Shown here: piece after piece, positions 52,930-57,654 of the stretch | How the letters are laid out: every line of letters begins with the position of its first letter | How positions within the stretch are numbered: the first letter of the stretch is position 1 | Assembly: GCF_007971385.1 (NCBI RefSeq) | Contig: NZ_CP042434.1 | Coordinates: 2,232,001-2,296,000 of the forward strand | Direction: 5' to 3' | Source: Arachidicoccus ginsenosidivorans | GTDB lineage: Bacteria > Bacteroidota > Bacteroidia > Chitinophagales > Chitinophagaceae | DNA: 64,000 nucleotides | Position numbers and translations under genes: made by a program | Notes under the pieces: generated by a model | Seen by the model: the letters and a program-made list of their open reading frames with translations, nothing else | Told to the model about the DNA's origin: nothing | Database searches by the model: none

Positions 52930-53549
52930 TTATTTTTTAGCCGAAGGCCGGGTCTTTACGACCCGGTCTTCGTTTTTGGCCAGGAATTCTTCCCAGTTTT
53001 TCATGGCCTTTTTTGTGCCCGGCAGAAACCGGCTTTGGTAATGGTGACAAAGGGCTACTGCCAGGGCATCGGACGCGTCATAATATTTTGGGGATTGCTC
53101 AATAGTAAAAACCTGCTGCAGCATTTTCCAGACTTGTTCTTTGCTGGCATTCCCATTGCCGGTAACGGATTGTTTGACTTTTTTGGGGGAATATTCCGTG
53201 ACGCCGAGTGCATGTTGCATGGCTGCAGCAATGGCTACGCCCTGGGCGCGGCCCAGTTTGAGCATACTTTGAACGTTTTTGCCGAAAAAAGGCGCCTCAA
53301 TGGCAAAACTACCGGGATGATGCAGGCCAATCAGCTCCAATACTGTTGAATGAATCTTTTCAAGCCTTTGATAGATATCTTTATAGGAGGAAAGTAAAAG
53401 CGTTCCCATGGCAATCAATTCAGGGGGGTATTGCCGGGCGCTACTTTAATAACCGCCCAACCCATTTTTATGGATCCCGGGTCAATGGCCATAATAATGG
53501 ACGCATTAGCGTCAACACCGGTCTTTTTATTAAAGATATTACTATTCAT
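52930..53549 (-). CDS. ruvC: Holliday-junction endonuclease RuvC, frameshifted
   Basis: Cleaves Holliday junctions with RuvAB. From ATG 53549 the first frame reads IIMAIDPGSIKMGWAVIKV, with the first catalytic Asp, then stops after NTPLN. Adding one base to the G6 run at 53423-53428 (plus strand) gives NTPPELIAMGTLLLSSY and continues to AIEAPFFGKNVQSMLKLGRAQG (catalytic Glu), VKQSVTGNGNASKEQV and YYDASDALAVALCHH (terminal catalytic Asp pair). The reconstructed protein is about 206 residues, normal. Its 3' end contains the purF terminator on the opposite strand. Confidence 0.9.
52942..52977 (+). terminator. purF terminator embedded in the 3' end of ruvC
   Basis: CGAAGGCCGGGTC pairs with GACCCGGTCTTCG (52942-52954 with 52960-52972, one G-U pair), followed by T5 on the plus strand. 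The same bases encode the last residues of RuvC. Confidence 0.85.
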
Positions 53550-56155: not shown

Positions 56156-57224
56156 ATGAAAAAATACATTATTGATGCTGATTGTCTAAACTTAGCCAGT
56201 GCTGCGTGTGAACCCCGTGAATCCAAGTCATATATTATTAACCGGGATGCTGTTGTTAATATGTTTGTTCAGGATGAGCCCTCTGCTTATCTAAAGCGAC
56301 AAGAGGATGATGCCGTATTCGTGGATCTGCTGAGTGATACTGGGTTTAAAATTGTTTTTGGAGATAGCGGAGAGGAGGAGACTGAAAGTAATAAATTAGA
56401 TAGTACGGTATTAAAAAGAGGAGATCTTCTGAAAAACATGCTGAATGCGTTCTTTGATGATAGAATCCAAAGGATTGCTAAAGTACAATTTAGGAATCCT
56501 GAAGTTTTTGGGAAATCTGTCCATCATCGTAAGGCGGTATATGATTTATATTTTGATGATGGAAGCAAACGTAGATTTGTTGTGGAGATGCAAAAAGATG
56601 AAATTTCTTTTATGCTGAACAGGATACACAATTACACAAGTTTAGCGCATTCTAATGCGATGAAAAAGGGTAAAAAATTTAAACATGACCAGCAGGCTAT
56701 TATAGGTGTGGTCATTGCTAATTTTGTTCTTCATGAAAATAAAAAAATGCCTTGTATCTCCGTCATTGAAAACGGCGATATGAAGGCAGGGATTGTGGCG
56801 ATGGATTTAACTAAAATTATGACAGTTGAATTGCCTAAATTCAATAAAAAAATTGATGGACAATAAAGATAAATATTTGTTTTTACTGAAGCATATGGGA
56901 AAATTGAAAGAAATTCCGGTTCAGTTTGATACGGAAGAATTCAGACCGATTTTTGAATGTGCTAGAATTGCAAACCTAAAAAAGGAGGACTATATGTTAA
57001 TTGATGAAGAAAGAACGCTTGAAAGAAGAAGAGAGCTCGTAATTGAAACCGCAGTTAATAAAGCTGTTGAAAAAGCTGTTGAAAAAGAGAGGAAAAAGGG
57101 CAAAGAGGAGGCTATAACTGCGCTTCTCCAGGAAGATTGTATGCCAATAGCAAGGATTGCGGCCGTAATGCGTGTTGAAAATGAAGAGGTGCTACGGATC
57201 AAAAAATCCATGGCAATCGCTTAA
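56156..57224 (+). CDS. Rpn-family PD-(D/E)XK nuclease (RpnL-like), frameshifted
   Basis: Recombination-promoting nuclease/putative transposase family (TIGR01784/PF12784 type). Residues 55-69 read FVDLLSDTGFKIVFG, the family start motif; the nuclease core is Asp130 in KAVYDLYFDD and Glu144-x-Gln146 in VVEMQK. The first frame stops at 56866. Removing one A from A7 at 56846-56852 joins it to the second frame (KLMDNKDKYLFLLKHMGKLKEIP), which carries the expected C-terminal part to 57224. The break may be sequencing error, slippage on A7, or true inactivation. The last 76 residues are preceded by a perfect internal ribosome-binding site. RpnL proteins in enterobacteria are toxic antiphage nucleases. 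Confidence 0.82.
56983..56996 (+). promoter_or_regulatory. Internal Shine-Dalgarno and start codon for RpnS
   Basis: AGGAGG at 56983-56988, 5 nt, then ATG at 56994, inside and in frame with rpn. Strong Shine-Dalgarno sites are rare elsewhere in this window. The identical site is kept in front of the free-standing copy at 57425-57438. Confidence 0.75.
56994..57224 (+). CDS. Intragenic RpnS-like antitoxin candidate
   Basis: 76-residue product of the internal ATG, identical to the C-terminus of the longer protein. It is highly charged and helical, with three 4-residue units AVNK-AVEK-AVEK (57051-57086) followed by KERKKGKEEAITALLQ and a helix-turn-helix-like end (IARIAAVMRVENEEVLRIKKSM). In reported Rpn systems the separately translated C-terminal domain, with a variable number of tetrapeptide repeats in a dimerising helix, blocks the toxic full-length nuclease. 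This one fits that plan. Expression is inferred from the AGGAGG site only. Confidence 0.65.
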   Translation: MLIDEERTLERRRELVIETAVNKAVEKAVEKERKKGKEEAITALLQEDCMPIARIAAVMRVENEEVLRIKKSMAIA

Positions 57225-57237
57225 ATTTGTTAACCCC

Positions 57238-57272
57238 AAAGAGGCTCAGGATGATTGCCTGGCCTCTTTTAT
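57238..57272 (+). terminator. Terminator after rpn
   Basis: AAAGAGGC-(T)-CAGG pairs with CCTG-GCCTCTTT, with a one-base bulge, followed by TTATTT. It separates rpn from the free-standing RpnS copy. Confidence 0.7.
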
Positions 57273-57424
57273 TTAAGAAGGTTGTTGGAAGACAAATGTG
57301 ATTTGTATGGATGCTTGTTGGAAAATTAACGTCGCATAGAGAAATTTTAAAAAAATACTATGGGCCGCGCGCGTAAAATATCTTATTGAGTTTGATGTGA
57401 AGGCTGATTGATTTAATGCTAAAA

Positions 57425-57438
57425 AGGAGGACTATATG
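57425..57438 (+). promoter_or_regulatory. Shine-Dalgarno and start of the free-standing RpnS copy
   Basis: AGGAGG at 57425-57430, 5 nt, ATG at 57436: same spacing and sequence as the internal site in rpn. Confidence 0.75.
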
Positions 57439-57654
57439 TTAATTGATAAAGAAAGAACAGTTGAAAGACGGTGGGAGTTGGTGCTGGAAACCGCAGTTAA
57501 TAAAGCAGTTGAAAAAGAGAGGAAAAAGGGGAAAGAGGAGACCATAACAGCGCTTCTCCAACGAAATTCTATGCCTGTAGAAGAAATTGCGATCCTCATG
57601 CATGTTGAAATTGAAGAGGTGCTACGGATTAAGGACTCTATGGCTATTTCCTAA
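57436..57654 (+). CDS. Free-standing RpnS-like protein (orphan antitoxin candidate)
   Basis: 72-residue protein matching the C-terminal tail of the upstream Rpn nuclease along its whole length (MLIDKERTVERRWELV against MLIDEERTLERRRELV), with two AVxK units instead of three (57493-57516). It has no nuclease part. Its reading frame is intact and its ribosome-binding site preserved, while upstream coding sequence has decayed, which suggests selection to keep the tail alone. It could neutralise the neighbouring Rpn or incoming Rpn proteins. Function is inferred. Confidence 0.7.
   Translation: MLIDKERTVERRWELVLETAVNKAVEKERKKGKEETITALLQRNSMPVEEIAILMHVEIEEVLRIKDSMAIS

Follow-up and report, generated by a model that had tools for sequence, protein, structure and literature searches.

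A candidate Rpn toxin-antitoxin locus with a second, free-standing tail in Arachidicoccus ginsenosidivorans

The stretch of DNA analyzed here (64,000 nt, referred to as a whole as the window) comes from the genome of the soil bacterium A. ginsenosidivorans (Chitinophagaceae), a single contig of 5.77 Mb, and carries an Rpn-like locus downstream of two genes encoding proteins of 337 and 265 aa. These upstream genes are syntenic with Arachidicoccus rhizosphaerae Vu-144, a member of the same genus (G001; the genome of the window is G000), where an intact rpn homologue comes after the same two genes. The locus comprises the following features:

56156..56866, + strand: ORF1 (236 aa), an Rpn-like protein's nuclease core of the PD-(D/E)XK (PDDEXK_2) type, assigned through PF12784 and through D, D, E-x-Q and R columns that are invariant with five relatives
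56846..56866, + strand: frame break between ORF1 and ORF2, adjoining an A7 run (56846-56852), with 8 nt fewer, net, than in two intact relatives (ORFs and alignment)
56856..57224, + strand: ORF2 from its ATG, overlapping the end of ORF1 and encoding the end of the nuclease domain and the tail (ORFs; partial PF12784 match of 16.6 bits, below cut-off)
56977..56993, + strand: predicted internal ribosome-binding site, 16S pairing of -14.3 kcal/mol (pairing and codon identity in three homologues)
56994..57224, + strand: putative internal RpnS (76 aa) with two AVEK repeats in its first helix (sequence and model)
57238..57269, + strand: intrinsic-terminator-like hairpin (-17.5 kcal/mol, z -3.5) in the gap that separates rpnL from the free tail (folding, which also gave a shorter form of it)
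57418..57435, + strand: predicted free-tail ribosome-binding site, 12 consecutive 16S pairs, -17.4 kcal/mol, the strongest of 2257 window ATGs (pairing)
57436..57654, + strand: putative free-standing RpnS paralogue (72 aa), with one 4-aa repeat fewer than the internal tail (dN/dS 0.22 against the internal tail; selection test)

A preliminary description of this DNA had proposed a PD-(D/E)XK nuclease gene whose last 76 residues would also be translated alone. The family assignment agrees with our searches, as ORF1 exceeds the PF12784 cut-off (E=2.8e-19; 70.2 bits, cut-off 27.4); against NCBIfam TIGR01784 (Rpn family nuclease), ORF1 alone scored 31.6 bits, below the cut-off of 52.1. Residues matching RpnA D11, D63, E82, Q84 and R94, which are given as required in the relevant passage of PMC5350276, are invariant in all six aligned sequences, including the window, with the match being read from order and spacing. 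The nuclease gene is, however, not one ORF. ORF1 stops before the tail, which sits in a different frame in ORF2 (start at TTG 56826 or ATG 56856, end at 57224). One open frame for a full-length RpnL, as in Rpn gene-within-gene systems, is absent from the window assembly and present in L017 and L025, two intact homologues from the same genus in which the frame reads through nuclease and tail; relative to both, the junction in the window is net 8 nt shorter. A break also occurs in a homologue of the window gene in G005 (L018/L180), where it lies just before the tail and leaves the tail as an ORF of its own.

The genome assembly probably carries homopolymer errors, as several other differences indicate. 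Among the window genes with a G001 orthologue (11 including rpnL, one antisense ORF excluded), one of the 10 other genes is frameshifted, namely a gene that we take to be RuvC-like (52930-53540, - strand), with a frameshift at a C run relative to A. rhizosphaerae that is probably an assembly error; this name, like TnpB-like below, is our own reading of the sequence, made without a family search. In addition, each of the paralogous loci L015/L044 and L008/L047 has lost one homopolymer base that the other retains, and the rpsU leader of the same genome (L255) has four G where all five congeners have five. Because the break near 56850 amounts to a net 8 nt and is no plain one-base loss, it may be either real or an assembly error, and whether the window toxin is live hangs on it. 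Phase variation at the A7 run was considered and set aside, since a net difference of 8 nt from the relatives does not support a simple one-base switch.

The AGGAGG-N5-ATG arrangement described previously is found at 56983-56996 and 57425-57438, and a start at ATG 56994 would indeed yield the last 76 residues. At first, AGGAGG seemed doubtful as evidence of a Shine-Dalgarno (SD) sequence, as the count of AGGAGG followed by ATG in the window was not above chance (4 against 2.1 expected, with 18 of 100 shuffles reaching 4) and no 4-nt SD core was found at -17 to -4 in any of the 31 ATG-started window ORFs. This view changed with pairing energies computed with the 3' tail of the genome's own 16S rRNA, which ends in ..GGAATACCTCCTTTTTAGA (3/3 fetched copies). 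Over the 2257 ATGs on both strands of the window, 57436 ranks first (-17.4 kcal/mol) and 56994 joint fourth (-14.3 kcal/mol), while the best pairing among 32 window gene starts is -8.0 kcal/mol. Internal starts of homologues pair at -15.3 and -14.3 kcal/mol (two in G001), -11.8 kcal/mol (two rpn genes of G003) and -2.7 kcal/mol (L180 in G005). No strong SD was seen at the other tail starts compared from G000, G001 and G005; a strong SD is thus a trait of some subfamilies.

The codons under the internal site are unusually constant: three homologues use the same codon there at 7 of 8 shared residues, compared to 54 of 137 elsewhere in the gene, and the site has the sole all-identical run of seven among the 139 stretches compared across these homologues. 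Over all surveyed genes, AAGGAGG codons are used at 8/15 KE[ED]-x-Met sites, compared to 1/12 such sites without Met and 18/84 elsewhere (p = 0.018 and p = 0.015, respectively, for a site definition made after the data were seen). ATGs pairing at or below -9 kcal/mol are also more frequent in the tail region (14.9% of 349) than in the nuclease region (5.3% of 620) of the surveyed genes, a contrast on which we do not rely because purine-rich tail repeats and duplicate loci confound it. The tail of this putative nuclease toxin can probably be produced separately, and it would then act as the antitoxin.

The predicted structure of the window tail consists of three helices (residues 3-46, 52-59 and 63-75; mean pLDDT 80, from a two-sequence alignment). 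The solved RpnA-S (7th0) aligns to this model over all of its 46 residues at 1.7 A, with a Z of 5.1 and rank 17. The model also resembles helix-turn-helix folds of the TrpR type (12% identity at the best Z of 7.3), with several TrpR chains above 7th0; helical models often reach such scores. Searched by sequence against the PDB, the window tail returned a single match at chance level and nothing to 7th0, and Foldseek with the tail model gave no match at E 0.001 or better. The model is compatible with the RpnS three-helix fold and not decisive for it.

The diverged copy of the tail reported downstream was recovered as the 72-aa ORF at 57436, which is 76% identical to the internal tail where aligned and has the same AGGAGG-N5-ATG; its start lies 211 nt from the upstream stop, essentially the 212 bp given before. 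Homology between the two tails begins 15 nt before each Met, their dN/dS is 0.22, and they differ by one AVEK, which is present twice in the internal tail and once in the free tail. Selection was assessed against a null of a neutral free copy and a frozen internal copy, scored on an open frame and few replacements. With stops counted, this null was rejected for the window (p=0.0185) and for seven of 11 loci combined (p=0.0023; recent pairs, L181 and L052 excluded), with single loci reaching up to p=0.31. With stops uncounted, it was not rejected for the window (147/1000 simulations). We read the free copy as a retained gene and not as debris. The 211 nt before it lack a TAnnTTTG box, which we take to be the -7 promoter motif of Bacteroidota, and contain the terminator-like hairpin; its expression is therefore only putative. 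The window tail had no match in five congeners, and no relatives of it were found in viral contigs, phages or genome_contigs, nor DNA relatives in plasmids, within the limits of each search; phages and plasmids do contain Rpn relatives, all of them distant. None of four proteins matched the PADLOC 2023 library, a result with no bearing on anti-phage activity.

The preliminary description had suggested a search for orphan tails beside rpn in related genomes, and such tails do recur. Free downstream tails were found at 8/28 Arachidicoccus matches (5/11 in G000, 2/10 in G005, 1/5 in G001 and 0/2 in G003) and at 2/48 matches in other Chitinophagaceae, both doubtful and both beside further rpn genes. 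This survey covered 76 PF12784 matches with one procedure, representing 28 of 31 Arachidicoccus rows (each of the other three was half of a gene already included) and 48 of 74 rows from other Chitinophagaceae; for three of these 48, the sequence extended <60 nt downstream, too short for a tail to be seen. The survey's afterNuc flag proved too strict where the nuclease query reaches the tail (L045, L048, L052, L181 and L182). The Arachidicoccus tails at L045, L181, L182 and L052 were flagged otherwise and look free by eye, as does that at L048; the L052 tail is a longer fragment, the L048 tail is weak, and all five lie outside the 8/28. Among 80 genome_contigs loci (two from A. rhizosphaerae) analyzed with another procedure, free tails are clear at L083 and L121, L067 has a fragment, and what was flagged at L069, L093 and L130 overlaps its own gene or borders directly on it.

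Several further arrangements were observed. At L045 (2578-4987), the free tail lies about 1.9 kb from its own gene, with presumably TnpB-like (transposase-like) ORFs in between. At L193 (G003:C1:1346900-1355600), about 2.3 kb separates two rpn genes, which are surrounded by more tail copies and have the SD-like internal sites of -11.8 kcal/mol mentioned above. L012/L050 (G000:C1:1467500-1475000) encodes a pair of short Rpn-like proteins, of 213 and 218 aa, and behind each of them a related protein of 87 aa; this is possibly a split form of the toxin-antitoxin arrangement.

For a closer comparison, 12 internal/free pairs from 11 loci were aligned, excluding L048, L049, the later L044 copies and the broken second L047 copy. 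Identity was 0.63-1.0 at 4-33 nt after the Met and 0.23-0.43 at 31-60 nt before it in 11/12 pairs, the exception being L052 (1.0); random 30-mers gave a mean of 0.26 and a 95th percentile of 0.40, with the window pair, at 0.43, just above. In 11/12 pairs there is no homology past 30 nt upstream of the internal Met. The start indicated by the free copies thus nearly coincides with the internal Met. The repeat region differs in all 12 pairs, with the free copy shorter in nine and longer in three (L188, L181 and L052); except in L181, the main gap spans a multiple of four residues. Like Rpn gene-within-gene systems, the window locus has 4-aa repeats in the first helix of its tails, in numbers that vary; those in the L017 and L025 tails are of a QVT type.

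In Escherichia coli, the internal and free tails of K-12 RpnE/YpaA likewise differ by one repeat, and all 12 sampled RpnE loci with a free tail (K-12 and 11 picked for different lengths among 60 listed of 5371 records) differ by at least one repeat, in seven distinct combinations. Since a hand calculation from the seven combinations gives only about 0.4 matches expected by chance, this mismatch is an observation and no test. A thirteenth sampled locus (L251) lacks the free copy, and its RpnE has the free copy's type of C-terminus; such fusions are mentioned in passages of Zhong et al. (PMC10327210).

Two recently duplicated loci in Arachidicoccus, L044 and L047 (upstream sequence 98.7% and nuclease 97.2% alike), suggest how tails may change. 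The C-half of the tail (87 nt) is 97.7-100% identical within each locus and 59-62% between the loci. The N-part (51 nt), on the other hand, is identical between the two internal tails and between the free tails (second L044 free copy against the L047 free copy) and 67-68% between the internal tails and those free copies, with the first L044 free copy intermediate (80-82%). The sequence after the C-half is 91-100% alike. The simplest reading of these identities is that, inside each locus, the C-half has been copied between internal and free tails. On this reading, tail exchange is seen at this one pair of loci, not at the window pair.

Taken together, these data lead us to consider it slightly better than an even bet that the window carries a diverged Rpn toxin-antitoxin locus of Arachidicoccus whose spare tail is under selection and may act as a swap cassette. 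A start at 56994 would produce RpnS, which would dimerize through its long first helix and block the full-length nuclease. The free copy probably would not block the neighboring toxin, because its repeat number differs, and would serve mainly as a spare tail. Through recombination between the homologous tails, the toxin could gain a new tail in one step; given the nested layout, a swapped tail would therefore change toxin and internal antitoxin together and leave them matched.

Other readings account for part of these observations. The free tail could simply work as another antitoxin against the neighboring toxin and raise the antitoxin dose, a reading that we regard as a serious contender that is nonetheless unlikely. 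It would fit the maintenance of the same C-half within a locus at L044 and L047, the free-tail ribosome site that surpasses the internal one, and the production of the separate E. coli RpnES (stated in a passage of PMC10327210). Against these points stand the repeat differences in every Arachidicoccus pair and every sampled E. coli RpnE locus, even if the latter are expected by chance with repeat numbers ranging so widely, and the finding, in a passage of the same paper, that one extra repeat abolished RpnC blocking, the repeat-matching rule having been tested for RpnC only. Somewhat less probable is that a real break has killed the toxin and that the tails are kept against incoming related Rpn toxins, as anti-addiction or immunity genes. 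The window break is unlike the single-base homopolymer losses of L044 and L047, and breaks in the window and, elsewhere in the gene, in L018/L180 leave the tails open in both cases. However, the assembly has other homopolymer differences (RuvC-like gene, rpsU leader), and ORF1 retains all catalytic-type residues.

That the free tail is a functionless, decaying by-product of tandem duplication we consider improbable. Broken tails do exist (the second L047 free copy has an in-frame stop), tandem tail units of 340 and 352 nt occur, and the weaker selection test did not reject neutrality for the window alone; yet low dN/dS and open frames extend over several loci, the homology boundary lies near the start codon, and the best ribosome site of the window is found at 57436. 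It is highly improbable that the tails are DNA-binding autoregulators and no antitoxins, as the resemblance of the tail model to TrpR-like folds might suggest, in view of how common such scores are for helical models and of the full-length alignment to RpnA-S.

According to passages of McNutt et al. 2023 (PMC9976891), SD sequences mostly go unused by the ribosomes of Bacteroidia, with rpsU as an exception, and in Flavobacterium johnsoniae the strong-SD rpsU is favored by ribosomes lacking bS21; a passage of PMC9723584 predicts that phage bS21 acts in Bacteroidetes. As bS21-lacking ribosomes favor such sites in F. johnsoniae, strong sites at two putative antitoxin starts provide a concrete trigger hypothesis. 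In this Rpn subfamily, RpnS, both internal and spare, would be translated mainly by the minority of ribosomes without bS21, like rpsU; a phage encoding a bS21 of its own, as some Bacteroidota phages do, would occupy these ribosomes, shut off RpnS and free the nuclease, so that the locus would be a ribosome-takeover sensor with the spare tails as a specificity-switching store. This is a long shot with very little chance of being right; if true, antitoxin supply would track the bS21 state of the cell. The likeness to Bacteroidota rpsU lies in the exceptional 16S pairing (-16.1 kcal/mol for G001 rpsU, compared to the two window starts), whereas rpsU is a ribosomal protein gene autoregulated by bS21, with no role in defence, and a response of rpn to bS21 is only hypothetical.

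Regarding known systems, passages of Zhong et al. 2023 (PMC10327210) establish Rpn loci as toxin-antitoxin systems of the gene-within-gene type. In E. coli, rpnE is followed by a second RpnES (ypaA) and rpnC by a second RpnCS, and Bacteroides fragilis is listed there as a source of tails with 4-aa repeats; in the same passages, the release of Rpn toxins is named an open question and the purpose of the downstream RpnS copies is unsettled. A second, separate RpnS, which the preliminary description had thought new, is thus a layout already present in E. coli RpnE/YpaA and RpnC. The gene-within-gene reading of that description stands as far as PF12784, the catalytic-type residues, the conserved internal start and the 4-aa repeats are concerned and falters at the broken frame, which it had missed together with the one-repeat difference and the recurrence of free tails in the genome. 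In the open-licence PMC literature, we found no published free RpnS in Bacteroidota and no later paper dealing with arrays of free RpnS, with exchange of tails or with an SD in use at rpn of this phylum, which does not prove absence.

E. coli RpnA/RpnA-S (7th0) resembles the window locus in combining a PD-(D/E)XK nuclease with what is, in the window, a predicted three-helix tail, while the window tail has no sequence match to RpnA-S and a moderate fold match. E. coli RpnE with RpnES (YpaA; L239) shares an internally started tail (predicted in the window), a free tail just downstream with the same Met, and a repeat number that differs between the two. By comparison, the window locus belongs to another Rpn subfamily, has a terminator-like hairpin between its tails and exceptional SD sequences in a phylum that mostly ignores them, and at some Arachidicoccus loci the free tails form a tandem series of several copies. 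While the layout, the repeats and the general function of Rpn loci were already known, the recurrence and apparent exchange of free tails in Arachidicoccus and the predicted rpsU-class ribosome sites at two putative antitoxin starts are new here, and the swapped tail halves of L044 and L047 represent a natural experiment on the use of spare tails.
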